From positions 1-64,000 of the IMG/VR virus record IMGVR_UViG_3300033571_014589: a stretch of DNA of 64,000 nucleotides. One strand, 5' to 3'. The position numbers were made by a program, and so were the translations under genes. Each line of letters opens with the position of its first letter. Position 1 is the stretch's first letter. Shown in pieces: positions 1,595 through 54,416 of the stretch. Below the pieces are notes generated by a model. The model searched no databases. It had not been told where the DNA came from and worked only from the letters and a program-made list of their open reading frames with translations. Origin of the DNA: a virus.

Positions 1595-1623
1595 AAAAAG
1601 GGACGATTTATTCGTCCCTTTTT
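1595..1623. terminator. Rho-independent terminator, probably bidirectional
   Basis: A perfect 12 bp stem (1595-1606 with 1612-1623) around a 5 base loop, with the core GGGACGA/TCGTCCC, A-tract on the left and T-tract on the right. It sits 18 bases after the gp23 stop and touches the stop codon of the converging endonuclease gene, so it can end transcription from both sides. Confidence 0.9.
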
Positions 1624-6587: not shown

Positions 6588-6595
6588 AATGAACT

Positions 6596-18523: not shown

Positions 18524-18819
18524 ATTTCCTCGATTCTAATTGTTTTATCATCAATAAATAAGTCATAATAGGGTTTATCAACCCTCAATTCATGAAATTT
18601 AACACCCCATTCATTTAATTGTTTATAGGTTAAATCATACCAATCAATTTGTTTTCTACTACCTCTTGCGGTCCAATAAACTATTGTATGTCCTTCATCA
18701 TATAATTGATTTATTTTTTCTATATTCTTATATATCGGTGAGGCGTTTTCATATTTTCGGTCTTTAGATGTTTCACAAATAGTTTCATCTATATCAACGT
18801 AGATTACCTTTAAATTCAT
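18520..18819 (-). CDS. Small HAD-superfamily phosphatase
   Basis: 99 residues. VIYVDIDETICETS is HAD motif I (D8, D10), EGHTIVYWTARGS is motif II with the typical TARG, and FIDDKTIRI matches motif IV. No cap domain. Proteins of this size occur next to NDP-sugar synthesis genes in capsule loci, where they dephosphorylate a sugar or alditol intermediate. It overlaps its upstream and downstream genes by 4 bases each. Confidence 0.72.
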   Translation of the reverse strand: MNLKVIYVDIDETICETSKDRKYENASPIYKNIEKINQLYDEGHTIVYWTARGSRKQIDWYDLTYKQLNEWGVKFHELRVDKPYYDLFIDDKTIRIEEI

Positions 18820-20203: not shown

Positions 20204-20231
20204 TTTTATATGAAAAAATAAGAAAAAAAAA

Positions 20232-21686: not shown

Positions 21687-21689
21687 AAA

Positions 21690-25085: not shown

Positions 25086-25086
25086 A

Positions 25087-25851
25087 TTATTTGTACCATT
25101 TATTTGAATTTATTAAATTATATTTTTTTACTATTTTCATATATTCATTACTTATATCGGCATAGGATTGGTTATAAACAGTAACAAAATTTACGTTTAA
25201 AGGTAAAAGTTTACCATTATGACTAATGTGTAGAAATTTATATTGTTGAATACAGTTAAAATATCCGCATCGTAAAAAATCATTAGTATTAATTTTAAAA
25301 ATTTTATATTTTTTACAAAAAGACTGGACAGCATAATCTTCAATTGTTCTATAATTTCTATCTTTGAATTTGTCCATAATTTCAATCAAAGTTTCTTTTT
25401 TCCAAATCGATGGGTTCACATTATATATATAATCTTTTTCATTTGTTTCCCTAACTAATTTAATATTATCAGAATAGTTAATAATATCTTTATCTATAAT
25501 GTTATCGGTATATTTCAAATCGATTCTATCAAAATTTTTATCTATCATAAACTCTAATATTTGCTCTAAAAATTCTAAATTTACATCTAACAATATATCT
25601 ATATCGTGAGAAAATAAAAAATAGTCAAACTTATAAAGTTTTAAACATTCTAAAAGTCTTTCAGCATATGGTAAACCATCATCGTAAAAAATTATTTCAT
25701 CGTAAAATTTATATATGTCATTTAAATTTTGATTGTTATTATTAATGAATAAAACTTTATTGACAAAATCTTTTTCTTTAATAAAATCTGTTTGTATTTT
25801 TAATATATCATGGTATGATGAATGTGTGTAAATAATGATAGGTACTTTCAT
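25087..25851 (-). CDS. Glycosyltransferase-like, paralogue of the gene at 23356
   Basis: 254 residues. VPIIIYTHSSYHDILKIQTD, FYDDGLPYAERLLECL, FLFSHDIDILLDVNLEF (DID at the presumed metal site) and YNVNPSIWKKETLIEIMDKF parallel the 269 aa protein at 23356. The ATG overlaps the stop of the DUF563-like gene by 4 bases. Confidence 0.6.
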   Translation of the reverse strand: MKVPIIIYTHSSYHDILKIQTDFIKEKDFVNKVLFINNNNQNLNDIYKFYDEIIFYDDGLPYAERLLECLKLYKFDYFLFSHDIDILLDVNLEFLEQILEFMIDKNFDRIDLKYTDNIIDKDIINYSDNIKLVRETNEKDYIYNVNPSIWKKETLIEIMDKFKDRNYRTIEDYAVQSFCKKYKIFKINTNDFLRCGYFNCIQQYKFLHISHNGKLLPLNVNFVTVYNQSYADISNEYMKIVKKYNLINSNKWYK

Positions 25852-27062
25852 AAGGGTTTAATTTTTTTTTCAAATTTTTTTATGTTTAAAATCCAAGGGG
25901 AATTTAAACCATTGTCTAATTTTTTACAATGTTTAGCATTTTCCGTTTTAACTTCAAATTTAGATTCTTTATTCCATCCTGATACAAAATCACTGGAATA
26001 TATTATTTTTAATTGATTATTGTTAATTTCAATAATTTCACCGATAACATCCCCGCATTTTACTCTCATATTAGATTTAAATTTAGTTTTTTCGTAGTGT
26101 TTGGTTTCTTCAAAGAAAGTTGTGATAACATTACTAAAACAGTATGTAAATCTTTTATTTATTTTTAAAAATTCTGGAGAATTAATAGAAATTAAATTAG
26201 TTTCTTTTTTACTAAAAAGAACATTACATAATCCTCCACCAATTGCACCTATAACATTTTCGGCTTTTGAAAACATAAGTATTTTTTCTTTAGTTGTTAA
26301 AAGTTCTGTAAATACTTCAGTATACCCTTTATTTTCTAAAAAGGAAACTAATTCGTCCTCATTTATTAGCTTTCTTCTATCAGTATAATTAGTACCTATA
26401 TTTAAATAGTTACCATGTTTATGGCTCCTTCTAGAAACATATATGTTTTTAGGTCTATCAATATTATCATCAACAACACTTTCTACTATTCTACTATAAA
26501 AATGATATATTTCTTTTCTTGGGGGTAAATTAGAATCAATACCATGTGTGTAAGAATCAGAGATATATATTTCAGAGTATTGAGTGTTTGGTTTAATTAA
26601 AACAATATCTTCTTTTGTTATTCCTAATATTTCTAAAAATTCACAAACAAAAGGATAAAAATGATTTTTATCCTTATTTGGATAATTCATTAATAACTTC
26701 AGGTTAGGTATGTTATTTTTTAATTGAAAAAATGAAATTAAATATGGTAGTGTATCATAAATGAAATGGAAGTAATTATCAGTATTATATACAAAAAAAA
26801 ATACAGGATTTGTATATACTTCATCCTGTTTAATAATTTCCGTATTTATTTTGAAATAATCATTTATTTTTTGTAAAGACATTATTTTTTCGTTTATGGG
26901 ATTAATGTGACCATTACTCTCCGAATAGAATCTAATATTTGGATAAAATAAATTATATCCAGCGGATGTCAAATTTTCAAATCTAAAGATTGAAATCTCT
27001 CTATTATTTTCATCCTTTTCAAAAATAGTTTTATATTTAGTAAACGTATCGTATTTTTTCAT
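25848..27062 (-). CDS. GT61/DUF563-like glycosyltransferase
   Basis: 404 residues. Key parts: YFHFIYDTLPYLISFF (the NxxHFxxDxLP-type motif), KNIYVSRRSHKHG (R-R basic loop after the strand), INEDELVSFLENKGYTEV, and the C-terminal ENVIGAIGGGLCNVLFSKKE, which is the GxxGGGLxNxLF signature of DUF563/GT61. The last 70 residues form an SH3-like barrel (MRVKCGDVIGEIIEINNNQL), an unusual extra part. Coupled by 4 base overlaps to both neighbours. Confidence 0.75.
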   Translation of the reverse strand: MKKYDTFTKYKTIFEKDENNREISIFRFENLTSAGYNLFYPNIRFYSESNGHINPINEKIMSLQKINDYFKINTEIIKQDEVYTNPVFFFVYNTDNYFHFIYDTLPYLISFFQLKNNIPNLKLLMNYPNKDKNHFYPFVCEFLEILGITKEDIVLIKPNTQYSEIYISDSYTHGIDSNLPPRKEIYHFYSRIVESVVDDNIDRPKNIYVSRRSHKHGNYLNIGTNYTDRRKLINEDELVSFLENKGYTEVFTELLTTKEKILMFSKAENVIGAIGGGLCNVLFSKKETNLISINSPEFLKINKRFTYCFSNVITTFFEETKHYEKTKFKSNMRVKCGDVIGEIIEINNNQLKIIYSSDFVSGWNKESKFEVKTENAKHCKKLDNGLNSPWILNIKKFEKKIKPL

Positions 27063-27799
27063 AAATTTAATTTATTTTTTTCAAAAAAAGATTCGTATGG
27101 ATAGCAATTAACATCTTCAATTATTTGTTCCATATAGTTATCAAATATACCTCTATAATTACTATTATTATCTAATACATATTTTTGATTATATATAAAA
27201 TCTCTATTAAATAATGAATATTTTCCAATACCTGATTTAATATGGTCATGTCTTAAATCTGAAATTATATTAGTTATTCCTTCCAAATATAAATCATTAA
27301 TTTTATATCCTTTTTTTAAACATCTAAATATAATATCACCATCTTCTTCACCAAAACCTAAAAGTCTTTCATCAAAATAACCGATTGAATCTAAAAAACT
27401 TTTGGATATTAAAAAATGAGAAAATGAATTATTAATTCTTGTTATACCTGAAAAATTAACATTTTCAATGTAGTTTGAAATTTTCAAAAAAAAGTCATTA
27501 GAGTTAATATCTAAATCATCATTTAACATTAGTATATTATTTTCATTTGAATGGACTGCGATTGTATTCCACATTTTTGACAACCCTCTTGTTTCTGTGA
27601 AAAAAATAGGATAAATATTAAGATTGGTCATACATAAATTAAGTATTTTTAATCTATACTCTTCAGAAAAATTACCTGATTCTTCACCGTTTATACATAG
27701 AAATATCCTATTACTATTAAATTTTCTAATTTTTCTTACTAAATTTTCTAAAAGACTAAACCTTTTAGAAAAAGTTGTTATACCTATAGCATATTTCAT
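27059..27799 (-). CDS. Glycosyltransferase family 2-like
   Basis: 246 residues. YAIGITTFSKRFSLLENLVR is the first GT2 strand and helix, NRIFLCINGEESG the second; NILMLNDDLDINSNDF carries the DDLD metal site, and DERLLGFGEEDGDIIFRCLK matches the acceptor ED motif, with the ED acting as base. Good single-domain GT2. Its ATG shares one base with the stop of the gene at 27799. Confidence 0.75.
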   Translation of the reverse strand: MKYAIGITTFSKRFSLLENLVRKIRKFNSNRIFLCINGEESGNFSEEYRLKILNLCMTNLNIYPIFFTETRGLSKMWNTIAVHSNENNILMLNDDLDINSNDFFLKISNYIENVNFSGITRINNSFSHFLISKSFLDSIGYFDERLLGFGEEDGDIIFRCLKKGYKINDLYLEGITNIISDLRHDHIKSGIGKYSLFNRDFIYNQKYVLDNNSNYRGIFDNYMEQIIEDVNCYPYESFFEKNKLNL

Positions 27800-28623
27800 T
27801 ATAAATACTCCTCCCCAAATGTTACAAGATTTTTATTGTAGTGTTTTTTAATAAACTCAACATAACCCTTTTTTTCCGCTAAAGAATCAAAAAATGACAA
27901 ATCTATATTAATACCATTAATTAAGCTGTCATTCATTTTTTGAGGACTGAAATTTAGATTATTTACAACACTATCATATCTTTGATTTATTGTTTGTATA
28001 CTATGATTATAATTTACCAATTCATAGTGTTTATACCATAATTGTTTTAAAGCGTAAAATTTACGATTACAAGATTGTAAATGTATTATACCAATATCCT
28101 TGGTTTGTAGTTTTGGTAAATTTACGGTTGGGGTTCGCGGAGTGTGGTATTTCCAAGCTGAAATATCCATATTTGAAATTTTTGACGTAGGTAAAACAAA
28201 AGAACGATAATTATTTGTATATGCGTTATCGGTTCTATAATACTCTAAAGAGTTTACACAATTATACCAATAAAGCCAAACATCTGAAGACTGAAATAAG
28301 TTTAAATACATATTAAAGTCTTTGATAAAATTACTTGTCATCAATTCATCAGAGTCTAATGATACTATATAATCAACCTTATGTTTTTTTGATATATCTA
28401 TCATTCTTTGTCTTTGGAACCCTTCATTAAATTTATTTAATTTATCATTAATTATTATTATTTTTTCATTATCTAAATGATTCTTAATTACTTGAATTGT
28501 GGAATCCGTTGAATTATCATCATAAAATATGAAAAGGTCTATCGGGTAATTCTTCCAAATGGGTAAAACATTATCTAATAATATTTCTTCATTTTTTACC
28601 ATACAATTTATTGCGGTTTTCAT
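27799..28623 (-). CDS. Glycosyltransferase family 2/92-like
   Basis: 274 residues. AINCMVKNEEILLDNVLPIW with FIFYDDNSTDSTIQVIKNHL and DYIVSLDSDELMTSNFI (DSDE metal site) is the classical GT2 layout for the NEE-type subgroup. KLQTKDIGIIHLQSCNRKFY near the C-terminus contributes the HL segment common in this subgroup. Overlaps the next gene by one base and is separated from the previous one by three. Confidence 0.76.
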   Translation of the reverse strand: MKTAINCMVKNEEILLDNVLPIWKNYPIDLFIFYDDNSTDSTIQVIKNHLDNEKIIIINDKLNKFNEGFQRQRMIDISKKHKVDYIVSLDSDELMTSNFIKDFNMYLNLFQSSDVWLYWYNCVNSLEYYRTDNAYTNNYRSFVLPTSKISNMDISAWKYHTPRTPTVNLPKLQTKDIGIIHLQSCNRKFYALKQLWYKHYELVNYNHSIQTINQRYDSVVNNLNFSPQKMNDSLINGINIDLSFFDSLAEKKGYVEFIKKHYNKNLVTFGEEYL

Positions 28624-28626
28624 TTT

Positions 28627-29292
28627 TTATTCTATATTAAAATTTATTTTTTTCCTTTCATTGTAAAGGCTCATATCATAATTAACATTTTGATAATTTA
28701 TTTTGTGTATTTCATCATGGTTATCAAAACCCCAATCAGGATGTTCATGTTTTATAATAGTCATTGGAAAATACGTTTGTTTCCTTAAAATGTCACCAAC
28801 CACCATAAACTCATTATCACACCAAGTTGATTTATATTCAGGATAATATATATATCCGAATCTTTGATAATATTTTTTACCTAAAATACACAATGTATTT
28901 AATTCATTACCTTTAAACCCATCATTAAAAAATAAAATACCATCAGTATCAGGATAAGTTTTTTTCATTAAAGAATTAATTACTTTATCAAATCCCTTCA
29001 CTTGTGGTATCATGTCATCGGAAGCCAATAAAATTATATCCCATTCTTCATTAACATCAATATCCCTATTAATTGCATCAACTTTAGACGTACTTGTACC
29101 AACTGTAATTTTGGTGTTCTTAAAAGACCTTAAATAAGACAATGTTTCACTATTATTCATTGTTACATCATCTTCATCTATTGTTATTGAAAATTCAGTA
29201 TTATCTTCAATAATAAAATCTTGATACTTTTTAAAAGTAGATAAAAATTTTTCTTTCCTTCCTCTTGTTGGAAACTTAATTAGTAATTTCAT
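28627..29292 (-). CDS. Glycosyltransferase GT-A-like
   Basis: 221 residues. LLIKFPTRGRKEKFLSTFKK is the N-terminal P-x-R-x-R-type strand used by GT2-like phage enzymes; EWDIILLASDDMIPQVKGFD gives the SDDM metal site; TWCDNEFMVVGDILRK and IKHEHPDWGFDNHDEIHKIN supply the acceptor acids and His. Its start overlaps the end of the fusion gene at 29276 by 17 bases. Confidence 0.72.
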   Translation of the reverse strand: MKLLIKFPTRGRKEKFLSTFKKYQDFIIEDNTEFSITIDEDDVTMNNSETLSYLRSFKNTKITVGTSTSKVDAINRDIDVNEEWDIILLASDDMIPQVKGFDKVINSLMKKTYPDTDGILFFNDGFKGNELNTLCILGKKYYQRFGYIYYPEYKSTWCDNEFMVVGDILRKQTYFPMTIIKHEHPDWGFDNHDEIHKINYQNVNYDMSLYNERKKINFNIE

Positions 29293-30916
29293 TTATTACT
29301 GATAAATAATTATTTATGATTTTATCGGTTACATCAACTGAATAAAATTTATTAATGTCTTCGGGTGAATCAACTAAAGTTTTATTTAAAATATTCCCAA
29401 CATTATCAACATCGTAAATCCAAGATTTTTTTCCACACATCCAACTTTCAATTGTTGTTCTACCTAACAATATTCCCGCAGTTTCTTTTGCTTCGGAGAT
29501 ATAATTTTCAGTGTTCCAAGTAGGTGGAAATAATTTAACATGTGAATTACTTTTTAATTTATCAAGATAATTAGATTTGTTTTCACCAACTAACCAAAGT
29601 TCCATAGCATTTTCACGAGAATAATTAACCAAATCCATTATTGTTTGTTCTCTTAAATAATCTATTGTACCAACAAAAAGAATGTAATTTTTGCTTGGTT
29701 TACCCATTGGTTTAAATCTAGTTTCATCAACAGGATTGTATATTACTTCAACATTTTCTGGTTCTATATTATATGATGAACAAATAAATTCTTTAATTTC
29801 GGGTCTAATTGCTATATATTTTCTAATTGTTTCGTGTACTACGGGTTTCTCCAAATCAATAACTTCAGAATGAATTGTTGCAATTTTATCTTCTTTAGGA
29901 TATAATTGTAGAATCAAATTTGTAACAGGTTCGTGTTGAACATGTATAATATCAAAATTTGGTTCGGAAATTTTGTATAACATTCCCTCTTTGGATTGTT
30001 CGGTTCCGTTTGGTGTTTGCATAGTCCATTTACCATCACCTCTTTTATATCCAGGAGGTTCTTGGAAGGAAAATACTTTTATCCCTTTCTTTTTTACCAT
30101 ATCAGTTAATGGACCTCCAATTTCTGATAGAACATTTACATTATGACCCAATTTAACCAAATTTTTCGCCAGTTCGTATATATAAACTTCTGAACCTGTA
30201 AAGGTTTTAAAGTTTAAACAAGATAACAATATGTTTAATTTATCTTCTTTGGTTTTTTTAATTTTAATAGGTAAGTTTTCTTTATTCTTTTCTGAAAACG
30301 AAATTCTATTTTTATCCCATTCTTCATTAACCATTCCTATTGATTTATGTGTAATTCTAACATCGTATATAACACCAATTTTAACATCCGCCAAATAGTT
30401 TCTAAAACAAAAATCAACATCATAAAAATGAAACCCATTAACTTCTAAATTAAAAGTTTCTTTAATTCTTGTCTTACTTAATGCGATAAAAAGACCGTCA
30501 ACCAAAACGGTTTGTTGGATATCTTTACCTAAACTATTTGAATATTTTGATTCCCACTTTTTTCCTTCATGTTCGTGGTTAACAATTCCGAACATTTTTC
30601 TTCTGTCTTCCCACCACATTCCTGATTTTGGGAGATATGTTGAACCTGCAACACCCAAAATTCCATAATCACTTTTTTTGAAATGGTCCAATATTTTATT
30701 ACCCCAACCATTTTTCTCAAAATAAATATCATCGTGACATAACACGACAATATCATTTTCAGATTCATTTAAAATTTGGTTATAAACTTCAGTTAGAGAA
30801 TACTCTCCATTATTAACCTTTTCAATAATCTGAACTTTTGGATGTCCACAAGATTTTTTTAAATATTCTTGTAGAAGTGGATTATGAAATCTTGTACTAT
30901 ATCCTATTGTAATCAT
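29276..30916 (-). CDS. Two-domain glycosyltransferase (GT2-like plus GT4-like)
   Basis: 546 residues. Residues 1-215 are GT2-like: ITIGYSTRFHNPLLQEYLKK, NDIVVLCHDDIYFEKNGWG (HDD metal site), FHFYDVDFCFRNYLADVKIG (D-x-D-FCFR acceptor motif). Residues 225-546 are GT-B: LNILLSCLNFKTFTGSEVYI, a Gly-rich acceptor loop, EVIYNPVDETRFKPM, NYILFVGTIDYLREQTIMDL, and AKETAGILLGRTTIESWMCG with the donor Glu. A fused pair may add two sugars in order. ATG shares one base with the dUTPase stop. Confidence 0.8.
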   Translation of the reverse strand: MITIGYSTRFHNPLLQEYLKKSCGHPKVQIIEKVNNGEYSLTEVYNQILNESENDIVVLCHDDIYFEKNGWGNKILDHFKKSDYGILGVAGSTYLPKSGMWWEDRRKMFGIVNHEHEGKKWESKYSNSLGKDIQQTVLVDGLFIALSKTRIKETFNLEVNGFHFYDVDFCFRNYLADVKIGVIYDVRITHKSIGMVNEEWDKNRISFSEKNKENLPIKIKKTKEDKLNILLSCLNFKTFTGSEVYIYELAKNLVKLGHNVNVLSEIGGPLTDMVKKKGIKVFSFQEPPGYKRGDGKWTMQTPNGTEQSKEGMLYKISEPNFDIIHVQHEPVTNLILQLYPKEDKIATIHSEVIDLEKPVVHETIRKYIAIRPEIKEFICSSYNIEPENVEVIYNPVDETRFKPMGKPSKNYILFVGTIDYLREQTIMDLVNYSRENAMELWLVGENKSNYLDKLKSNSHVKLFPPTWNTENYISEAKETAGILLGRTTIESWMCGKKSWIYDVDNVGNILNKTLVDSPEDINKFYSVDVTDKIINNYLSVINEITN

Positions 30917-32212: not shown

Positions 32213-33342
32213 TATTTTAGTGTTTTATATAATTCAGCTCTATGTTTTGTTACAATATTTAAATCGTATTTGTCTTTTACAGTTTCGTATAATCTTTGAC
32301 CTAAGTCGTATGCCATATTTGGGTTTTGAATAAGTTTCTTCATTGCCTTTGCCCAATCAGAATGATTCCTTTTCTCATCAACCAAAATAGCATTACCATT
32401 AATAAAATTACCATTTTCTAAGCAATGTTTCAAGTCCAAAGTATAAGGACCCAAATTCGATGCAATAATTGCCTTTTTATAAAACCCCGCTTCAATCACT
32501 TTCAGTTGTGATTTTACTCTGTTAAAAATGTGGTTTACAATAGGAGCCAATGAAACATCAAACTTTGCATAGTTTTTAGCATATCCATTAATTGGTTCGG
32601 TCCATACCCTATTATAGAATTCTTCACCGTTCCAAGATTCCTGTCTATACTTCAATAAATAATTTTTATATTCAGGTGAAGTGAATTCATAATTTTTGGT
32701 AAAAATTTCTTCGTATCTCGCCCAAACCGTTTCTTCGGGTCTAATAGGTCTTTGTTTTTCTTCACCTGTTTGTGCATTAATTTCAGTCATTGTTCCTCTA
32801 ACATCAAAACCACATAAGAAAAATTGCGACTTATTTCTTAAATCATTACCAAGTACATCTGTACATCCTTTTAAAAGGTTTAAGTCATGCAAATGTGATG
32901 AACCACCAAGCCAACCAAATCTCATTTTATCAGATGGTTCGGTTTTTGCATTAAATTGTGGTTCTTTCGGGTTAATTGCGTTAGGTAATACAAAAACATT
33001 TTTATTGTATTTTTTAATTTCATCAGCAAAAATCGGTGTTGTGGTTGTTACATATTTTGCAACTTTAAGATTTGCGATAATTTTTTCGTGGATTTTATGT
33101 TGAACAACCAAATGGTGAACAGGGTGTTCTTTGGTTGGCAACCAATAATCATCCAAATCCATAACCGTTATAATTCCTAAACTATTTAAAATCTGAATCA
33201 TTGTATTTGATTTTTCATAATCAGGATTCAAACTTCTATGGAAGCAGACCATATCATATTTTGTCCAAAATGATATGTCATCCATATTTGGATTATAATC
33301 AATATCTACATGGAAATCATCAGGATATTGATTTTGTAGCAT
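32212..33342 (-). CDS. Glycosyltransferase GT-B-like, N-terminus cut off by an in-frame stop
   Basis: 376 residues from the ATG at 33342. VCFHRSLNPDYEKSNTMIQI, GIITVMDLDDYWLPTKEHPV, RFGWLGGSSHLHDLNLLKG and NRVKSQLKVIEAGFYKKAII are typical of GT4-like enzymes in T4-like phages. The first Rossmann strand is missing here but is encoded upstream in the same frame: codons 33459-33376 read MTQKNDSPLNGRQKIRILVL and then ASDRTGVG, after which TAA (33373-33375) stops, and GKFRSLDPHI leads into the ATG used here. The whole would be a normal 415 codon GT. So the gene is either inactivated, read through, or re-started at 33342. Confidence 0.7.
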   Translation of the reverse strand: MLQNQYPDDFHVDIDYNPNMDDISFWTKYDMVCFHRSLNPDYEKSNTMIQILNSLGIITVMDLDDYWLPTKEHPVHHLVVQHKIHEKIIANLKVAKYVTTTTPIFADEIKKYNKNVFVLPNAINPKEPQFNAKTEPSDKMRFGWLGGSSHLHDLNLLKGCTDVLGNDLRNKSQFFLCGFDVRGTMTEINAQTGEEKQRPIRPEETVWARYEEIFTKNYEFTSPEYKNYLLKYRQESWNGEEFYNRVWTEPINGYAKNYAKFDVSLAPIVNHIFNRVKSQLKVIEAGFYKKAIIASNLGPYTLDLKHCLENGNFINGNAILVDEKRNHSDWAKAMKKLIQNPNMAYDLGQRLYETVKDKYDLNIVTKHRAELYKTLK

Positions 33343-33459
33343 TATGTGGGGGTCTAAAGAACGAAATTTTCCTTAACCTACCCCTGTACGGTCAGATGCG
33401 AGAACAAGTATTCGAATCTTTTGACGACCATTCAGGGGCGAATCATTTTTTTGTGTCAT
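33343..33459 (-). pseudogene. 5' part of the glycosyltransferase, ended by an in-frame TAA
   Basis: In frame with the gene at 32212. From ATG 33459 it encodes 28 residues ending ILVLASDRTGVG, the first strand and glycine loop of a GT-B fold, then TAA at 33373-33375, then GKFRSLDPHI up to the ATG at 33342. Its base composition is less AT-rich than its surroundings. The minus-strand leader before ATG 33459 is A/T-rich (TTTAATAAAAATG). Confidence 0.65.
33381..33438. other. Imperfect hairpin in the GC-rich glycosyltransferase leader segment
   Basis: CCCCTG (33381-33386) pairs with CAGGGG (33433-33438), GGTC (33390-33393) with GACC (33426-33429), and AGAT (33394-33397) with ATCT (33416-33419), separated by small internal loops. 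It lies just 5' of the in-frame stop on the transcript side. Could be coding-only coincidence. Confidence 0.35.
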
Positions 33460-33564
33460 TTTTATTAAAAAAATATAATTTATGAAATTTGATTTTAAAT
33501 CAAATTACCGTAAAAATATAATATCTAAGATTATTTAAGTCAATCTGTTTTTTCTATTATTAAT

Positions 33565-33589
33565 ATATTTATCTAAAATGAAAGAACTA
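33565..33589 (+). repeat. 25 bp direct repeat, copy 1 (element plus start of the LRR gene)
   Basis: Contains the TATTTATC element, a 4 base spacer, the ATG and codons for MKEL. A second copy with one mismatch lies at 34047-34071. Confidence 0.8.
33566..33573 (+). promoter_or_regulatory. TATTTATC element 4 bases before the ATG at 33578
   Basis: Member of the TATTTAT set, on the sense strand of the LRR gene. Confidence 0.5.
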
Positions 33590-34060
33590 ATCAGAAAAAT
33601 ATTAAAAGAAGAAACCGAAGAAGTTCTTGAACTTCCATCAATCAAATATTTTCTTAATGATTGGAAATGGGTTATTAAATTTGTTAAAAGTGAAGGAAAT
33701 CCATTATTTTCAATTCAAGAAAGTCTTATTTTAAGACACAATAGTCTAAAAACTCTTGGAAGATTATATTCAGTTGAAGGTAATTTGGACTTATATGGAT
33801 GTAAAAACCTAACATCTCTTGGAAAACTATCACATGTTGGGGAATGGTTGGATTTAAGAGGAACAAATATAACATCTCTTGGAAATTTAACACATGTCGG
33901 TGGAGGTTTGGATTTATATGAATGTAAAAGCTTAACATCTCTTGGAAGACTACAACATGTTGGTGGTCTTTTGGATTTAAGAGATACACCAATGGCTAAT
34001 GAATATTCCGAAGAAGAAATACGAAAAATGGTTAATGTTGAAGGAAATATTTATCTATAA
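33578..34060 (+). CDS. Small leucine-rich-repeat-like protein
   Basis: 160 residues. A helical N-terminus MKELIRKILKEETEEVLELP is followed by four or five copies of a roughly 20 residue unit of the type GNLDLYGCKNLTSLGKLSHV (about residues 58-140), forming a short solenoid. Such LRR genes are common and variable in large marine phages; function is unknown, binding of a protein partner is the usual guess. The N-terminal helix resembles that of several other proteins in this window. Flanked by a 25 bp direct repeat, so it may be a cassette that can be gained or lost. Confidence 0.68.
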   Translation: MKELIRKILKEETEEVLELPSIKYFLNDWKWVIKFVKSEGNPLFSIQESLILRHNSLKTLGRLYSVEGNLDLYGCKNLTSLGKLSHVGEWLDLRGTNITSLGNLTHVGGGLDLYECKSLTSLGRLQHVGGLLDLRDTPMANEYSEEEIRKMVNVEGNIYL

Positions 34061-34665: not shown

Positions 34666-35046
34666 TTATAATTTTGCATTTATGTAAACAACAGACATTA
34701 ATTTATCTCCTGTTGTATTATAATTTGACGGTAATTCATTAAATTTTTCACCTGTTCTCTGAAACGTAAAAGTTTTATCTATTCTAAATAATCTCCAACC
34801 CGGTAAAACTTTTTTACCGATTGCAACACTATGTGACGCTCCTTCAGGTTCATATGCCCTTAAAACTAAATTTCCTTTTAATGAACGTCCCAAACAAACA
34901 GGATAAACAGTTCTATATCCTTTACCACCTGGTTCGTCACCATCGTATGTTATAATAATAACATCACGATTTTTGATTGCCCTTTGCAAATCATTAAATG
35001 ATACGGCTTCAGTAATAAAACTTTTTATAGTTTCAAGTAACTTCAT
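34666..35046 (-). CDS. WYL-domain-like protein
   Basis: 126 residues. After a helical start (MKLLETIKSFITEAVSFNDL) the core VIITYDGDEPGGKGYRTVYP, NLVLRAYEPEGASHS and PGWRLFRIDKTFTF follow the WYL fold (beta-rich ligand-binding domain, with Y..YP, LR.Y and WR.FR..), but without the DNA-binding region of typical WYL transcription factors. WYL domains bind ligands such as single-stranded DNA or nucleotides. Its ATG shares one base with the next stop. Confidence 0.62.
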   Translation of the reverse strand: MKLLETIKSFITEAVSFNDLQRAIKNRDVIIITYDGDEPGGKGYRTVYPVCLGRSLKGNLVLRAYEPEGASHSVAIGKKVLPGWRLFRIDKTFTFQRTGEKFNELPSNYNTTGDKLMSVVYINAKL

Positions 35047-42362: not shown

Positions 42363-42681
42363 CATCACTAGATAAAATAAACCAATAACCTCCAATGAAA
42401 TAAAATTCGACACTTGAACCTGAATTTAATTCAATGTCATCATATTTGTCATCGAATTTATTTCTATCAGGTTTTATAATTGTTTTTGTTAAAGATTTAA
42501 TATAAACGTGGTCGGTTGTTGAACTATCCAAAGTGATTTCACAATCGTCCACGTTTTTAACAATTATTATGTGTTCACCTTTTGTTACATAGGTTTTTTC
42601 CGACAAAATTATGCCTTCAGAGGATTCGACCTCAATTCCATTTATAATTCTTTTTGAGGGTATATTCTTTAATATTGGCAT
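42346..42681 (-). CDS. Small beta-rich protein, 111 aa, possible virion decoration part
   Basis: PILKNIPSKRIINGIEVESS with GEHIIIVKNVDDCEITLD and VEFYFIGGYWFILSSDGIKY: strand-rich, hydrophilic, no motif known to me. Its ATG shares one base with the neck protein stop, so co-transcribed with it. Confidence 0.5.
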   Translation of the reverse strand: MPILKNIPSKRIINGIEVESSEGIILSEKTYVTKGEHIIIVKNVDDCEITLDSSTTDHVYIKSLTKTIIKPDRNKFDDKYDDIELNSGSSVEFYFIGGYWFILSSDGIKYQ

Positions 42682-43808
42682 TAAATTACGTAGAAATTTC
42701 CAGGGAAAGCTCTAAACTTCAATTGTTTGTTAAGGTTTTCAGCTATTAAAGCTTCTCTTTCCATAACCTTGTCAGGTCTTAATCTCGTTAATTGACCTTC
42801 AGCGCCAATTAGTTCTTCAAGTAGTTTCGCTCTTTCATCTTTCGCCTCAGTAGCCAAAGAAGTATAATCAAGAGTTAATTCTGAATCGGGTGTTTTTAAG
42901 TTTCCACTATACTTTCCCCAAACACGAGAAAGAGTTTCTTTACAATATGCGGTGAACCATCTTCTAACCCATTGTTGTGCAGGAACATTTAATTCAGACC
43001 AAGAAAGTTCTTCTAATGGCACATCTGAAGGTAATTTAACGATGTCAGGGTTTTTTGCTAAACAATCATTTCTATCGCCATCTGTGGTGTCATAATACCA
43101 ATACCAACATCTGTATCTGTTAAATGAAATATTTGAGAAGTCGAATCTACCACCAGGTACGTTATAAAGATGTACAATTTTCTTTCCATCAGGTGCTGCG
43201 GTGATTCTATATGTTAAATCACCAATGATAATTCTTTGTTTGATATTTCTATCTGCCATTCTTAAAAGAACGTCAAATGCTGGCATCATAAAATAACTAC
43301 CACCCACACCAAATTGTGCATATCCTGCGGGTCCACCAAGACCAGTACCTCCGAAACCATATAATCCACCCATGAACGGGTCAAAGAAAGTATCATTTAA
43401 TTCCGCTCTTTGAAACCAAAGAAGTTCGTTAATTTCTCTCCCTGCAGGAATTTCATATAGTTGTTGATTTGGAACCAAATCAAAATAATCTTTTTTCAAG
43501 ACCCAAGGACCACCAGCTTGTAAACCAACAATTTTTGAATACGCATAAGTATATTGGGTTTCCCAATCTAAACTACGAGTAATAAGTGCGTTTGCAACTG
43601 AACGTTCATCCAAATTAAGACCGTTTAATGAAGTCCATTGTGAATCTATCAACCAATTAAGAACATATTGGGTATAATCACCAATAGCAAGTTCCATTAA
43701 CGAATCCATTTGTTCGTCTTCCAATTCAACACCTCTAACGGGTGCTCCAAGAAGATTTCTTATTCTTCTATAAAGTCTGCTTCTTTCGGGTTCTTGTATA
43801 ATAGCCAT
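42681..43808 (-). CDS. Neck protein, T4 gp13-like
   Basis: 375 residues; T4 gp13 has 309. The N-terminal region RIRNLLGAPVRGVELEDEQM matches the LGAPVxxIxLxDEQ signature at the start of gp13 homologues, and QRAELNDTFFDPFMGGLYGF and YNVPGGRFDFSNISFN follow. A Gly-rich stretch (FMGGLYGFGGTGLGGPAGYA) is an added flexible loop. C-terminal helices (VRRWFTAYCKETLSRVWGKY) are typical. gp13 closes the head after packaging and joins it to the tail. I start it at ATG 43808, with TATTTATT 4 bases before it; a longer frame begins with TTG at 43814. Confidence 0.72.
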   Translation of the reverse strand: MAIIQEPERSRLYRRIRNLLGAPVRGVELEDEQMDSLMELAIGDYTQYVLNWLIDSQWTSLNGLNLDERSVANALITRSLDWETQYTYAYSKIVGLQAGGPWVLKKDYFDLVPNQQLYEIPAGREINELLWFQRAELNDTFFDPFMGGLYGFGGTGLGGPAGYAQFGVGGSYFMMPAFDVLLRMADRNIKQRIIIGDLTYRITAAPDGKKIVHLYNVPGGRFDFSNISFNRYRCWYWYYDTTDGDRNDCLAKNPDIVKLPSDVPLEELSWSELNVPAQQWVRRWFTAYCKETLSRVWGKYSGNLKTPDSELTLDYTSLATEAKDERAKLLEELIGAEGQLTRLRPDKVMEREALIAENLNKQLKFRAFPGNFYVI

Positions 43809-43812
43809 TAAC

Positions 43813-43820
43813 AATAAATA
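43813..43820 (-). promoter_or_regulatory. TATTTATT element 4 bases before the ATG at 43808
   Basis: Sense-strand TATTTATT, GTTA, ATG. Confidence 0.5.
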
Positions 43821-43829
43821 TCATAGATA

Positions 43830-45383
43830 TTAAATTTGGCTACTTTTTTCGAACACGTAATTTCCGTCAATTATTTTTGTTGAATTGTTTTTGAAAACAA
43901 TAGTTGTATCGCCATTATTGAACGCAATATAATCTGTTGTATATTTTTTAGGATTACTAACACCATATATAACAACTTCGTTATATGAAAACTTCCTGAT
44001 AGATGAAAAAGGTTTTATTTGTATGGTCTTTTCAACACCATTTTCAATAACAATTGCATCAACCCCTGAAATCATATCTTGTTCACTACCCAAACCACCA
44101 ATTTTTTTTACTTCATCGGTGTTAAATATTTTTTTAAGTTGAATTATTGTGTTATCTTCTCTAATATCACCCAACCTATTTGTTTGTTTTAGTTTTTCAA
44201 AAATTTCTTGAAAGGTTTTTGAAGTTTCAAGATTGAATATTCTATTTTTTAATAACTCCAAATAGTTACAAAATCTTTCAACTTCTTTTATTTGTTGTTG
44301 CTTATCTGATGGTGAAAATGAAATTTTTTCCTTATTTACGGATTTTAAATAAACATTTAAGTCGTTCATTAATATACAGAACGCACTATAGTTTGTGTTA
44401 AGTTTATTTATAACTGACCGTCCTTTTGATTCAAAATCATATATACCTGACATTGAATTGGTTTCATATTCTCCCTTTTCTTTCCAATATTCAGGAAAAA
44501 CATCTTTCAAAATACTGTTTATGGTATGCATAAACTTATATTTTACTTCAGGGTTAGTTGAAAACAATTTATTTATTTCTTTTGTTTGTGTTGAGTTACA
44601 TCCCATACTTTCTCTTGATTCACTTATAATTTGTTTGTAAGACTTTGATTCTTTTATTTCTTTTTCGGTTTTTGACAAATATAACGAATTTACGAATTCC
44701 CAGTTTATTGCGGAAAAGAAATTTTTAACATATTCATCTCTTTTGTTTTGGTATTTTAAATAATATGCATGTTCCCACAAATCTAAACCTAAAATAGGAA
44801 AACCACCGTCTTCAACAATGTTCATTAAAGGATTATCCTGATTTGGTGTTATAACAATTTTTAATTTACCACTTTTTGATATTATTAACCAACACCAACC
44901 TGAACCAAAATTTGATGATGCTTTTTCTATAAAACTTTTCTTAAATTCGTTATAAGAACCAAAATCTTTTTTTATTCTTTCCAAGACCTCACCCTTAATG
45001 GTTTGTTTTGTTGGTGATAACATTTTCCAAAAAAGAGCGTGATTAAACGCACCACCAGCATTATTCCTAACAATTTTATTAAATCTTGAAATACTTCTTA
45101 TGATTTCTTCAAGGTCCATATCAGACCTTTTAATATTTTCAATTGCTTTGTTTAACTTTTCAACGTATCCCTTATAATGTCTATTATAGTGAATATTCAT
45201 TGTCTTAGGGTCAACAAATCTTAATAATGATGAATATGAATATGGTAACTTTTCGATACCAATTTTTTTCATTTCATTTAGAATTTCTTTTTGTTGGGTG
45301 TGTAATTCCTCTGAAAGATTTTCTTTACCTTCCAAAATTGTTTGAATTTCTTCAATTTCCAAATCTAACTTTTTAAGTTCCAT
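43830..45383 (-). CDS. Superoxide dismutase (Mn/Fe type) fused to nuclease-like C-terminal domain
   Basis: 517 residues from the ATG at 45383 (a longer frame to 45452 lacks an upstream element and overlaps the helicase). Residues 42-240 are an Fe/Mn superoxide dismutase. The four metal ligands are all visible: H65 in MNIHYNRHYKGYVEKLN, H115 in RNNAGGAFNHALFWKML, D201 and H205 in LGLDLWEHAYYLKYQNKR. ITPNQDNPLM carries Gln182, the MnSOD-type glutamine. A coiled-coil-like N-terminal 40 residues precede it. Residues 255-517 are a second domain, with EQDMISGVDAIVIENG followed by KTIQIKPFSS, the E/D-x-D-x12-QxK pattern of PD-(D/E)XK nucleases (E434, D442, Q455, K457). No SOD relative I know has this C-terminus. 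TATTTATA 3 bases before the ATG suggests late synthesis. Confidence 0.83.
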   Translation of the reverse strand: MELKKLDLEIEEIQTILEGKENLSEELHTQQKEILNEMKKIGIEKLPYSYSSLLRFVDPKTMNIHYNRHYKGYVEKLNKAIENIKRSDMDLEEIIRSISRFNKIVRNNAGGAFNHALFWKMLSPTKQTIKGEVLERIKKDFGSYNEFKKSFIEKASSNFGSGWCWLIISKSGKLKIVITPNQDNPLMNIVEDGGFPILGLDLWEHAYYLKYQNKRDEYVKNFFSAINWEFVNSLYLSKTEKEIKESKSYKQIISESRESMGCNSTQTKEINKLFSTNPEVKYKFMHTINSILKDVFPEYWKEKGEYETNSMSGIYDFESKGRSVINKLNTNYSAFCILMNDLNVYLKSVNKEKISFSPSDKQQQIKEVERFCNYLELLKNRIFNLETSKTFQEIFEKLKQTNRLGDIREDNTIIQLKKIFNTDEVKKIGGLGSEQDMISGVDAIVIENGVEKTIQIKPFSSIRKFSYNEVVIYGVSNPKKYTTDYIAFNNGDTTIVFKNNSTKIIDGNYVFEKSSQI

Positions 45384-45386
45384 TAC

Positions 45387-45394
45387 TATAAATA
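45387..45394 (-). promoter_or_regulatory. TATTTATA element 3 bases before the ATG at 45383
   Basis: Sense-strand TATTTATA, GTA, ATG for the SOD-nuclease gene; it lies in the gap after the helicase stop (45412), so the two genes are probably expressed separately. Confidence 0.55.
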
Positions 45395-45411: not shown

Positions 45412-48315
45412 TTATCTTTTTTGATTAATTCTATCCATAATTTCTCCAACAATTTCAGCTCTATCTAAGTTATCACCCATAACAGTTGCAATGTTTTGTT
45501 TTTTGGTATTAACAATATCATATATTATCCCTTCAATCGCGTTCTCGAAAATTGGATAGTATACGGATACTGAATTTTTTTGACCATAACGATAAGCTCT
45601 ATCTTCCGCCTGAGCCATATCACCAGGAACAAAAGAAAGGTCATTCATTATTACCGCTTCCCCAGCAGTTAATGTTATTCCAACTCCTGCGGCTTTCATA
45701 TTACCAATAAAGATTTTTATCTTATCATCTGTTTGAAACCTATCTACCGCTTCTTGTCTTTGTTTTGGTGAACAAGAACCATTCAAATAAACAGAATTTT
45801 TTGAATAATGATTATGAAGAGATTCTAATGTTTCTGTAAAATTGGTGAAAACAATAACTTTTTTATCCTGTTCGATAATATTATCAATTAATTCTATCGT
45901 TGAATTGATTTTTTCTTTTGCAATTACTTGTCTTACTTTTGTAAGTTTTGTGAACTGAACGGTTAGTGATGAACTTTCATCGGGGTTTTTATCATACCAA
46001 TCATAATATTCTCCCATTAAACTTTCATATTCTTTAGATTTTAATCTTAGGTAAACTGGTGTTATTATTTTTTCAGGAAGGTCCAAGATATCCGTTTTTA
46101 ATCTTCGTAATACTTGTCTTGACGTTCTATCTCTTAATTCCTCAAGGTTAGATGCTCCAGTGACATTCCATATTTTTCTATTACCAACTTTAAACTGATA
46201 ACCATCACAATACCTTTTTACATATGCCATCCAATTTGATGCTACGGGTGATTCCACCAAATTTAAAAGATTATAATAGTTAATTGGTCTTGATGTCATT
46301 GGAGTTCCTGTTAATAACCAAAGTCTATCAACATCTTTCACAAAACTATTAATTAATTTGGTTCTCTTTGCCAAACTATTCTGTACATAGTGAGCCTCAT
46401 CAATAATTATTAAATCAAAATTACTTTTTAATATTAAGGATTCTTGATTTTTTTCCGTACTGTGGAAGTTTTTAACTATGTCGTAATTCATAATTACAAA
46501 ATCCGCATCTTCATATTTTTTACCTTCACAAATATATACTGACCTATCACTATAGTTTTGAATTTCCCTTTGCCAATTAATCTTTAAAGATGCGGGACAT
46601 ATAATTAAAATTTTCTTTGCTCCTGTTTCTAATGCCGCAACAATTGTTGAAGTTGTATTATGAGTTACAATACAATGTTCTGTAACGTATAACTTATCAG
46701 GAGAGTCAACTGAAATACAAACCGCATCCCCTCTACCTTCGAGTTGTATATCTTTAATATACCTTCCAACTTTGTATTTATTAGGGGAGTTATATAATTT
46801 ACACTTTCGTTCAAGTTTGAATGGGTTCATACCACTAGGTAATTTTATATTAACCCTATAGGATTTTTTACCCTTTTTTTTAACTCCATTATGAGTATAA
46901 TTTGTTATTCTATCTTTTTTTCTAGCAATCCCCCCTAAACTATGAACAATTTCAATTACGTCATCACATAGTTTTTCAGATGTTGTGCTAAATTCAGTTC
47001 CTCTGAACTCACCATTTTTACTAACATAACAAGTCCCATCAGTATCCATTAAACCTTTTAAAAGTTCTAATCTATCATTAATTGAAGAATATTTATACGC
47101 ATCAGGAATAAATTTATTATATGAACCACAACCCATTAAATTTAATTTTTTCAAAATTTGTATTACTGGATTAGTAAGTCCTGCTTCTTTTATAATTTTA
47201 TACCCATATTTTGAATTTACTTTTTCAATTATCCGTGAATTTTCAGGTAAAACTTGTTTTATATAATTAATAATTTCATAATCTTTAGTTGTAAAAGAAA
47301 TACTTTTTTGAGTTATACCACCATCTCCTAAGATTAACCCCAACAAGTAAGGATTTAACTCTAATTCACGTGACACAAACTCAATCGGTTTAACCATTGG
47401 TATTTGCCATTTGTTATTACCACCTTTATTTTTAAAATAAGTTTTAAATTTATATTTTCTATTATTGTTATTTTTTTCACCTAATACTTCTAAGGCTAAC
47501 TCTTTATCTAGCATATCGCCTACGGATAATACAATCTCTTTTTTTCTACGAGAGTTATTAGTGTTAATCCCAAAACTGTTTGACATGACCGAAAATAAAT
47601 GTTCTTTACAGACTAAAATAGAAACCCCATCATTGAATGATACTCTGTATAAATCTTTAACCCCTTGTGGGTAAACACCTAAAACTTTACACTTTTTACC
47701 ATTACTACCAATAACTTCATCACCAATTTTTAAATCACCAATTTTTTTTCTACCGTATGGGGTAAATACCATATTTTCAACAAACTCGGCTTTTCCAGCA
47801 CCCATATCGTCTGCCAAAATAAATCTTTTGGTTCTTACTAAACGATTAACCGCTTCTATTTGATGTTTTAATGGAGGTCTATGGGAATACTTTGAAAAAT
47901 CAATTTCTTTGTAATACTCTTCAGGGTTTTTAATAATCGCAACTTTTGGAATCCAAATATCCGTCAAAGGTTCACTTTCAAAAAATTTACCCCATATATG
48001 ATAAGATTTTTCTTTTTCAACCAATAATTTTTCAACCCAAATTTTGTTAGGAGGATTGGTATATAATTTTTCATTTGCAATTTTTTCTGAAAAATATGAA
48101 TCCAATTCAACCCACTTCTTTGCAATTTTTGGTGTTATATTATGAAAGTTTATTATATACTCTGATTGACTTCTTGTTATTTCTTTACTCTTATTAGGTC
48201 CGAAAAGTGATTTTAATCTTAATATATAGTTATTTGCACCATTATAACTCTCTAAAATTTTAAGAGCTTTTTTTTCAAAAACATTTATAGACGACGATTC
48301 GATGTTGTCTGACAT
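45412..48315 (-). CDS. SNF2-family helicase, interrupted by an intein in the P-loop
   Basis: 967 residues, of which 176-553 form an intein, leaving 589 residues after splicing. The helicase is SNF2-like: RPPLKHQIEAVNRLV, Walker A FILADDMGAGK before the intein and TTSTIVAALE after it (DDMGxGKTT), LIIIDEAHYVQN (motif II), DRLWLLTGTPMTSRPINYYN (motif III), ILIICPASLKINW (Ia), and the C-terminal half with VIVFTNFTETLESLHN, KAAGVGITLTAGEAVIMND and QAEDRAYRYGQ (motifs V and VI). It is of the short, RecA-only type. Role is likely DNA strand annealing or remodelling at forks, as with T4 UvsW. It has a TATTTATT element 17 bases before the ATG. Confidence 0.88.
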   Translation of the reverse strand: MSDNIESSSINVFEKKALKILESYNGANNYILRLKSLFGPNKSKEITRSQSEYIINFHNITPKIAKKWVELDSYFSEKIANEKLYTNPPNKIWVEKLLVEKEKSYHIWGKFFESEPLTDIWIPKVAIIKNPEEYYKEIDFSKYSHRPPLKHQIEAVNRLVRTKRFILADDMGAGKAEFVENMVFTPYGRKKIGDLKIGDEVIGSNGKKCKVLGVYPQGVKDLYRVSFNDGVSILVCKEHLFSVMSNSFGINTNNSRRKKEIVLSVGDMLDKELALEVLGEKNNNNRKYKFKTYFKNKGGNNKWQIPMVKPIEFVSRELELNPYLLGLILGDGGITQKSISFTTKDYEIINYIKQVLPENSRIIEKVNSKYGYKIIKEAGLTNPVIQILKKLNLMGCGSYNKFIPDAYKYSSINDRLELLKGLMDTDGTCYVSKNGEFRGTEFSTTSEKLCDDVIEIVHSLGGIARKKDRITNYTHNGVKKKGKKSYRVNIKLPSGMNPFKLERKCKLYNSPNKYKVGRYIKDIQLEGRGDAVCISVDSPDKLYVTEHCIVTHNTTSTIVAALETGAKKILIICPASLKINWQREIQNYSDRSVYICEGKKYEDADFVIMNYDIVKNFHSTEKNQESLILKSNFDLIIIDEAHYVQNSLAKRTKLINSFVKDVDRLWLLTGTPMTSRPINYYNLLNLVESPVASNWMAYVKRYCDGYQFKVGNRKIWNVTGASNLEELRDRTSRQVLRRLKTDILDLPEKIITPVYLRLKSKEYESLMGEYYDWYDKNPDESSSLTVQFTKLTKVRQVIAKEKINSTIELIDNIIEQDKKVIVFTNFTETLESLHNHYSKNSVYLNGSCSPKQRQEAVDRFQTDDKIKIFIGNMKAAGVGITLTAGEAVIMNDLSFVPGDMAQAEDRAYRYGQKNSVSVYYPIFENAIEGIIYDIVNTKKQNIATVMGDNLDRAEIVGEIMDRINQKR
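46657..47790 (-). mobile_element. Intein with LAGLIDADG homing endonuclease (378 aa), class-3-like
   Basis: Sits between the Lys and Thr of the helicase Walker A motif. It begins with Ala (AEFVENMVFTPYGRKKIGDL), not Cys or Ser, and ends THN before extein Thr (CIVTHN/TTSTIV). Block F is GDAVCISVDSP, giving a Cys at position F4, and Thr precedes the penultimate His-Asn pair, both features of class 3 inteins, in which F4 Cys is the nucleophile. The Trp of the class 3 triplet would be two residues after block B His, where I read Phe (CKEHLFSV). Two LAGLIDADG helices, LLGLILGDGG (324-333) and LLKGLMDTDG (418-427), mark a homing endonuclease. Junctions are inferred from alignment with uninterrupted SNF2 P-loops. 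Confidence 0.9.
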
Positions 48316-53424: not shown

Positions 53425-53568
53425 ATGAAATTCACAAAAAAAGTATTGTTTGAAAATATGGAAGTTAAGACCAATGGTTTAAAAACTTATTCTGAAAAAC
53501 CTCAGTCTATAATTGTTAGTGAATCACAATTAGAAAGAGTAATTCAAAAAATTTTAAATAAAAAATGA
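53425..53568 (+). CDS. Small 47 aa protein coupled to the HAD-like gene
   Basis: MKFTKKVLFENMEVKTNGLK ending SESQLERVIQKILNKK. It ends ATGA with the start of the HAD-like gene (4 base overlap). Its C-terminal helix (SQLERVIQKIL) resembles the N-terminal helices of other proteins in this window. Confidence 0.6.
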   Translation: MKFTKKVLFENMEVKTNGLKTYSEKPQSIIVSESQLERVIQKILNKK

Positions 53569-54416
53569 ATTATAAAAAACTAATTAGACGTACCCTACAT
53601 AAATTGTCTGAAGGATTTGACCCTAGTGGTCTTCCTGACCATAAATACTATGCTTTTGATTGGGATGATAACGTAATGAACATGCCAACAAAAATCATAG
53701 TATTAGATGAAGATGGTAATGAAGTTGGTATTTCTACTGATGATTTTACCGAACATAGACATCAGATAGGTAAAGAACCTTTTGTATATAATGGTAAAAC
53801 TATTATATCATACGCCGAAAGACCATTTAGAAATTTCAGAGATGAAGGAGAAGCTCAATTCTTGGAAGATATCATGTCAGCAGGATTCGGACCTTCTTGG
53901 AACGACTTTGTTGAATGTATAAATGGGGGTTCAATTTTTGCAATTATTACAGCACGTGGACACAACCCTGAAATCCTTAAAGAAGCGGTATATAAACTCA
54001 TTAAAAACAATATTGGTGGGTTAGATGAGGAAAAGGTTGTTGAGTCGTTAAAAATGTATCATGAGTTAACTGATAAAGAAATTAAAGATGATGATACAAT
54101 GATTAGAGAATATTTGGACATGTGTAGGTTTCATCCTGTTTCATTTGGTACAGGTGCGGAAGCAAATCCTGAAGAAGGAAAAGTTAATGCATTAAGAGAA
54201 TTTATAGGTTATGTAAAACAAGTTTCAAGAGAAATTGGTGGAAGAACCTTATTTAAAAATGACGTTACAAATAATTTTATCATCCCTAAAATTGGTTTTT
54301 CAGATGATGATGAAAAAAATATTGAAAAAATTAAAGATTTCTTAAATAAAGAATTTGGCCTAGAAGCTCCAGTACAGACATATTTAACTAAATCAAATAT
54401 TAAAAGAAAATATTAA
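53565..54416 (+). CDS. HAD-like phosphatase-type protein
   Basis: 283 residues. HKYYAFDWDDNVMNMPTKII has HAD motif I (DWDDN), FAIITARGHNPEILKEAVYK has motif II (TARG) and the acidic KIGFSDDDEKNIEKI near 250 could supply motif IV, although a motif III Lys is not obvious. Proteins with FDWDDN and TARG of this size are common in marine T4-like phages next to tail genes. Unlike the other HAD proteins here it has a helical N-terminus (MNYKKLIRRTLHKLSEG) and lies in the late operon, so it may be virion-associated. Confidence 0.65.
   Translation: MNYKKLIRRTLHKLSEGFDPSGLPDHKYYAFDWDDNVMNMPTKIIVLDEDGNEVGISTDDFTEHRHQIGKEPFVYNGKTIISYAERPFRNFRDEGEAQFLEDIMSAGFGPSWNDFVECINGGSIFAIITARGHNPEILKEAVYKLIKNNIGGLDEEKVVESLKMYHELTDKEIKDDDTMIREYLDMCRFHPVSFGTGAEANPEEGKVNALREFIGYVKQVSREIGGRTLFKNDVTNNFIIPKIGFSDDDEKNIEKIKDFLNKEFGLEAPVQTYLTKSNIKRKY

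Follow-up and report, generated by a model that had tools for sequence, protein, structure and literature searches.

In phage T4, the internal head proteins carry short N-terminal propeptides, the capsid targeting sequences, which are removed by the prohead protease gp21, and many of these proteins are ejected into the host; gp21 cleaves after the motif L/I-X-E (PMC9026906, extracts). The polyvalent proteins described by Iyer et al. in 2017 combine several effector domains in one polypeptide and are thought to be delivered with the phage DNA and processed (PMC5512222, extracts); the word "superoxide" does not occur in the extracts of that paper. Phage superoxide dismutases (SODs) are already known as free proteins, and jumbo phages, MIJ3 and Callisto for example, also have SODs annotated sodB. 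In the titles and abstract openings of the literature on phage SOD, no report of a SOD fused to a nuclease was found.

The window analysed here, a 64,000-nucleotide stretch of an IMG/VR virus record, encodes such a fusion. In an open reading frame of 517 residues, an Fe/Mn superoxide dismutase (residues 44-236) is followed by a C-terminal unit whose last part is a PD-(D/E)XK-type domain. The features of the locus are listed below.

45412-48315, minus strand: SNF2/UvsW-like helicase with an intein, immediately upstream (Pfam, PHROG).
45387-45394, minus strand: late-type element TATTTATA, 3 bases before the ATG (observed in the fusion loci against shuffles).
43830-45383, minus strand: the whole SOD-nuclease fusion frame, 517 aa without an internal stop (105 distinct full-length fusions).
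45255-45383, minus strand: leader, residues 1-43, a variable helix with L-N-E37|M (E37 in 87 of 105).
44676-45254, minus strand: Fe/Mn-type superoxide dismutase domain, residues 44-236 (Pfam, NCBIfam, PDB sequences, fold).
44598-44675, minus strand: inter-domain linker, residues 237-262 (model, conservation).
44646-44657, minus strand: prohead-protease-like site 1, I-K-E245|S, residues 243-246 ([LIV]-x-E in 105 of 105).
44616-44627, minus strand: prohead-protease-like site 2, I-S-E255|S, residues 253-256 ([IL]-x-E in 105 of 105).
44184-44597, minus strand: mainly helical conserved region, residues 263-400, GRSVINKLNTNYS..FC (conservation, model).
43833-44183, minus strand: PD-(D/E)XK-like domain, residues 401-517, with E409, D442, Q455 and K457 (conservation, model, fold matches).
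42681-43814, minus strand: neck or head-tail adaptor protein (gp13-like), immediately downstream (PHROG 211).

The possibility was considered that the fusion is the product of a frameshift or of an assembly join between two genes, which the first-pass annotation had named as fatal to its proposal of a SOD and a nuclease-like domain in one gene. An IMG/VR scan identified at least 598 viral stretches coding for relatives, and the 80 relatives kept from among them were all single unbroken reading frames across both halves. A second scan was queried with the C-terminal alignment. At the 77 loci examined, both halves lay in one frame in 74 (one of which, L108, has a break inside the SOD), the C-terminal unit stood alone in two, and the frame was broken between the halves in one, L099. 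Four scans were pooled and partial or broken proteins were removed by length and coverage filters, giving 105 distinct full-length fusions, the window's own counted, and 28 distinct SOD-less proteins. The 80 unbroken kept relatives and the 105 distinct fusions rule out a frameshift or assembly join; the two-gene arrangement looked for in relatives was not encountered, and the search for the same fusion in other phages, which had been proposed at the outset, confirmed the single gene.

The phage group carrying the fusion consists of uncultivated large phages and is widespread. A search of 50,697 phage records with the window protein gave 28 matches at E 1e-5, each confined to the SOD part. A UniProt entry from an uncultured Caudovirales phage, A0A6J5L953 (501 aa, named superoxide dismutase), matches the C-terminal model in a structure search, and members of the fusion family are therefore already deposited under the SOD name.

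The SOD domain is covered by two Pfam families, PF00081 at residues 43-123 (E 1.8e-20, 73.6 bits, cut-off 27) and PF02777 at residues 130-233 (E 8.2e-39, 132.2 bits, cut-off 20.9). Among PDB sequences, the domain is closest to 5n56 (5.6e-61, residues 43-236), by title a Staphylococcus aureus SOD. The whole-protein model is moderate (pLDDT 74.6, pTM 0.48), and its SOD part matches solved SOD structures. The metal ligands H65, H115, D201 and H205 are kept in all 105 fusions, as are the Mn-type Gln182, the gate residues H69 and Y73, and W203, E204, H205 and Y208 of the WEHAYYL stretch. SOD activity had been called plausible, and this complete set of ligands and second-sphere residues agrees with the predicted activity; H65, H115, Q182, D201, H205 and, in the other half, D442 all lie where they had first been placed. 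Bacteroidota account for 71 of the 80 best cellular relatives of the SOD. In a quick tree, with long-branch warnings beside the phage clade, the 49 fusion SODs tested formed one clade apart from the 80 bacterial SODs (SH-aLRT 100). The SOD was probably acquired once by the phage group.

Sequence searches assigned the C-terminal half to no family: no Pfam model scored above cut-off, the best PHROG match had an E of 0.08, and comparison of the unit with known structures by sequence profile gave no link (best PDB E 0.21). A model of the unit built from 31 sequences had a mean pLDDT of 91.3. When it was compared with the PDB by Foldseek, each of the first 27 matches was either a Holliday junction resolvase, Hjc or another, or the homing endonuclease I-Ssp6803I, the best with an E of 4.4e-3. 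A second structural alignment (VIA) returned Hjc, SPARDA subunits, I-Ssp6803I and DpnI; its first 17 matches are all PD-(D/E)XK nucleases by title, and the aligned part corresponds to about residues 142-262 of the model. The Z scores reached 7.8; values below 8 count as middling, and the fold is therefore assigned from the agreement among the matches taken together with four invariant residues. These residues, E409, D442, Q455 and K457, are kept in 105 of 105 fusions, and the same columns are invariant in an alignment of 31 sequences (A3) that includes eight standalone forms. The D-x12-QxK pattern reported by the first-pass annotation was located as D442-x12-Q455-x-K457, and its assignment of a PD-(D/E)XK-like half is borne out by the predicted fold together with the four residues; where a missing nuclease fold had been set beforehand as counter-evidence, structure prediction shows a nuclease-like fold instead. 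The C-terminal half has, in the model, a PD-(D/E)XK-type nuclease-like fold, and nuclease activity is predicted. Because the SOD and nuclease residues are invariant in all 105 fusions, both halves are under selection.

No cellular homologue of the C-terminal unit was confirmed among 101 pattern matches from 84,980 prokaryote species (one genome each). The only homologues in phage records are in LR756501 and LR756503, from a 735-kb uncultured phage (25% identity, E 8e-7), and the LR756501 homologue also has GE...GGVD...LQCK. This distant, SOD-less homologue of the nuclease unit lies at 5743-6615 of locus L249 (LR756501). In addition, the C-terminal fold is present (E 3.5e-18, 24% identity) in the 1113-aa protein of BFVD entry A0A8D9CCA0, from an uncultured marine phage, which suggests, from predicted structure, a further fusion partner of that fold. 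The unit represents a sequence family that is matched by no Pfam or PHROG model and is frequent in uncultivated phage contigs.

The linker between the halves is strongly variable save for K242, E245, E255, S259 and C262. Residues 240-255 have a pLDDT under 50, and a low-confidence helix is drawn through the linker at 228-253 of the whole-protein model. In 101 of 105 fusions, a G, S or T comes after E255. At the position after E245, 17 of the 105 have E and 7 have V or I, which makes E255 the better candidate site. Across the whole protein, [LIV]xE[GAST] is present in more than half of the sequences at only two columns, 245 (0.77) and 255 (0.96). When the next residue is disregarded, further positions with conserved [LIV]xE are 37 (0.78, in a variable leader of 37-43 residues), 204 (0.89, in the SOD core), 294 (0.51) and 367 (0.95). 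Since L/I-X-E is short and the motif is conserved at 204 and 367 too, conservation alone does not prove a cut site. Both linker sites fit the gp21 motif and the linker looks cleavable, making them candidate cut sites.

A protease that could act on such sites belongs to the same phages. The gp21 family (PF03420) was detected in 11 of 19 records tested, among them the longer record of the window phage (G011), where the homologue lies at 32759-33478. A major capsid gene was present in 11 of 18 records searched (G000 was outside that search), and these are the same 11. The eight PF03420-negative records are perhaps fragments, and seven of them also lack a capsid gene. In 11 of 11 capsid proteins, some of them near-identical in sequence, the N-terminal region ends in LINE|A, which is read as the gp21-type site of the capsid protein. 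The suggested link of the fusion to the virion thus gains support, at the level of sequence, from the prohead-protease-like sites and the gp21 homologue.

Leader-like tags were also observed. In record G001, a series of small proteins bears N-terminal tags of the type MKKxIRLTESDLxxIVKR. In the mechanically listed reading frames of this record, [LI]xE[GAS] occurs at 29 sites within residues 1-15, or 6.8 per 1000 against 1.8 past residue 100, an N-terminal excess of 3.8 times; G011 has no such excess (2.2 against 2.1). Tags ending in [LI]xE, for example MKKIIRLTESDLTRIVKR, occur on otherwise different small proteins at L329-L345 (G001), and the same tag type is found in the window at 3537-4664, 33578-34060, 34666-35046 and 53565-54416. 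They are candidate capsid-targeting leaders of the phage group. RLTESDL had no match in the literature searched.

The late-type element that the first-pass annotation had placed 3 bases upstream of the gene is a recurrent feature of the family. Of the 105 fusion loci, 79 have TATTTATA or TATAAATA in the 60 bases before the start, as compared with 5.3 when the upstream sequences were letter-shuffled. In G011, TATTTATA precedes 24 of 171 gene starts (4.1 when shuffled), including those of the protease gene and of a scaffold-like gene before the capsid gene, as well as genes without an assigned role; in G001 it precedes 49 of 315 (6.0 when shuffled). We infer that TATTTATA is a late promoter element of the phage group.

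The genomic position of the family is nearly constant. The adjacent gene had been called neck protein gp13, and its match to PHROG 211, "head-tail adaptor Ad2", at 6.7e-10 agrees with this; a neck gene is directly downstream in 130 of 131 distinct loci, fused and SOD-less together. The helicase is directly upstream in 123 of 126 distinct loci, likewise of both kinds. L184 differs from nearly all other loci, with about 1.1 kb between the nuclease and neck genes and the helicase about 0.8 kb off. In the window, an intein with a LAGLIDADG-type homing endonuclease splits the ATP-binding motif of the helicase (GAGK/T); the L155 homologue is without intein. A reading frame of 998 aa in the likely portal position at 8976-11972 of L320 (27976-30972 of G011) has, judging by its sequence, a hint-like stretch, GDTKIATPDGFITIKELAD, and possibly contains a second intein. 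Directly after the capsid gene (1623-3239 of the window, minus strand), a 538-aa frame with zinc-finger-like repeats looks, from its sequence, like a free-standing homing endonuclease. Between structural genes (16506-30916, minus strand) lie about sixteen genes in a block, many of which look from their translations like glycosyltransferases or sugar-nucleotide enzymes.

The gene starts show no Shine-Dalgarno-like enrichment of G and favour A at -3, a pattern described for Bacteroidota (PMC6847099, extracts). Considering this pattern and the predominance of Bacteroidota among the SOD relatives, the host of the phage group is most likely a member of that phylum.

The nuclease unit also stands alone, in the same genomic place as the fusions, in the 28 distinct SOD-less proteins, of which 19 have a long leader and 9 a short one. 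Relocation of the SOD to another site was rejected, since no SOD was found elsewhere in any of the nine records that hold a SOD-less form (four of 272-318 kb, the others shorter and perhaps fragments). On the C-terminal tree, the presence and absence of SOD needs two changes, and a single clade of SOD-less forms was rejected (p-AU 0.0103). Two of these proteins, L207 and L208, retain the stub INEMKKIEIEKL, which leads into the SOD in the fusions, and then continue directly with the linker site. For these two, a clean in-frame loss of the SOD is well supported by sequence, and for these only, because the root of the family is unsure, its sole outgroup having a very long branch. The other SOD-less clade (20 tree rows) may possibly have lacked a SOD ancestrally.

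The long-leader and short-leader forms differ in their upstream sequences and in the protease-like site. [LIV]xE[GAST] is kept in all 19 long-leader forms, and each of them has TATTTATA, exact or with a single mismatch, in the 40 bases upstream. Over the SOD-less loci as a whole, the exact late element is present in only 4 of 28 (1.1 when shuffled); with one mismatch it is present in 24 of 28, which is weak because shuffles over 60 bases already give 10.8 of 28. The motif TTTG-N-TAnnTTTG, the housekeeping promoter consensus of Bacteroidota (PMC6847099, extracts), precedes 7 of the 9 short-leader forms, none of the 19 long-leader forms and none of the 105 fusions; the shuffled expectation is 0.05 among the 28 SOD-less and 0.2 among the 105 fused. 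Only 2 of the 9 short-leader forms keep [LIV]xE[GAST], and in L199 and L235, both short-leader, L-x-E is retained and followed by K. The protease-like site appears to be eroding in the short-leader forms. An independent-pair test of the association between promoter and site on the tree, with 3-4 independent changes, was not significant. Such a pattern of promoter and site would be expected of a nuclease required from the outset of infection that can be supplied either by the virion or by being made early. What had been noted at first pass is extended here by the SOD-less relatives, the conserved sites in the linker and the switch of promoter.

On balance we lean slightly towards a late capsid-cargo precursor that is cut into SOD and nuclease during head maturation and ejected with the DNA. 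In this reading, a large phage related to T4, probably one infecting Bacteroidota, expresses the gene late, and the product is a precursor composed of a leader, an Mn/Fe-SOD, a cleavable linker and a PD-(D/E)XK nuclease unit. The precursor would enter the prohead core, where the gp21-like protease would cut after E255 and/or E245, and possibly after E37, freeing the SOD and the nuclease within the maturing head. Both would be ejected with the genome into the next cell, the nuclease acting immediately, on host DNA, competing DNA or branched DNA, while the SOD clears superoxide during entry and takeover. We infer the packaging, the cleavage, the ejection, both catalytic activities and their targets. 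The reading draws on the two conserved linker sites, the protease and capsid site in the same records, the low-confidence modelling of the linker, the late-type element, the differences between long-leader and short-leader forms, and the invariance of the SOD and nuclease residues. Several observations tell against it: the leader is longer than the T4 propeptides, [LIV]xE is conserved at 204 and 367 as well, E245 is not always followed by a small residue, the linker is drawn as a low-confidence helix, G011 has no N-terminal excess of the motif, the exact late element is scarce among SOD-less loci, L199 and L235 keep L-x-E before K, and the association of promoter and site is not significant on the tree.

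A fuller version is offered more tentatively, as a possibility that falls short of an even chance. It describes a two-warhead cargo in which the single precursor ensures 1:1 loading of SOD and nuclease into the head and the capsid protease separates them, and in which lineages that had lost the SOD and part of the leader went over from virion delivery of the nuclease to its immediate synthesis from a host-type promoter. If so, an antioxidant enzyme and a DNase would both be injected at the start of each infection, and the switch to a host promoter would mean that the job of the nuclease falls in the first minutes of infection. It would follow that phage heads can deliver an antioxidant enzyme, making oxidative stress at entry directly testable, and that a head-protease linker in a single precursor is a natural route to equal loading of two enzymes. 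The SOD-less variants with a host-type promoter would allow delivery of one effector in the virion to be compared, in naturally occurring phages, with its early synthesis.

The alternative that survives best, though we consider it unlikely, is an Hjc-like resolvase that serves late recombination and packaging together with its neighbour, the UvsW-like helicase, the SOD being a fused passenger and nothing being packaged or cut. The predicted fold is nearest to archaeal Hjc, the near-constant helicase neighbour and the late-type element are as this explanation would have them, and REase-fold resolvases have been proposed in jumbo phages (Iyer et al. 2021, PMC7824862, extracts). A resolvase would otherwise be without an assigned gene, since in nine records RuvC was found in none and endonuclease VII in none above cut-off (one weaker match in G001, E 1.6e-4). 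However, a resolvase leaves three things unexplained: that both [LIV]xE sites of the linker are invariant, that the SOD is intact in every one of the 105 fusions, and that the short-leader forms have a host-type promoter.

An uncut, two-domain late enzyme, whose SOD guards the cell or the progeny DNA from superoxide while its nuclease degrades host DNA for nucleotides, is improbable. The conserved residues for both predicted activities and the unbroken frames of all 80 relatives kept from the at least 598 stretches accord with it, but the protease-like sites in the linker do not, and the SOD has been lost at least once with the nuclease retained (L207/L208, with the relic INEMKKIEIEKL), so the halves need not act together. 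That the SOD is an inert dimerisation scaffold for the nuclease is very improbable: Fe/Mn SODs are dimers or tetramers and the W203, E204, H205 and Y208 of WEHAYYL never vary, but a mere scaffold would not need invariant ligands, H69, Y73 and Gln182, and SOD-less forms exist. The earlier suggestion of the SOD as a permanent carrier of the nuclease likewise loses its footing, because 28 distinct proteins have the nuclease unit without SOD and the linker looks cleavable.

Compared with the Fe/Mn SOD family, the phage domain has the same fold, the four ligands, the Mn-type Gln and the gate residues, and differs in being fused to a nuclease unit. The C-terminal unit shares its predicted fold and the E-D-QxK residues with the PD-(D/E)XK domains of the Hjc, I-Ssp6803I and DpnI type, but has no significant Pfam, PHROGs or PDB sequence match and adds a helical region of about 140 residues and a partner domain. 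The polyvalent proteins resemble the fusion in carrying multiple effector domains in one polypeptide, whereas no peptidase domain was found in the SOD-nuclease protein by Pfam search. The internal head proteins of T4 (IPI-III, Alt) owe their delivery to capsid targeting sequences and are cleaved by gp21. As described, they are like the fusion in the late-type element, the gp21-family protease and an [LI]xE-type site before the cargo domain, and the phages of this group have T4-type head genes with a comparable capsid site. The T4 propeptides are 10-19 residues long, whereas the leader of the fusion is longer, at 37-43 residues, and the fusion precursor, unlike the T4 internal proteins, consists of two enzymatic domains with sites between them.
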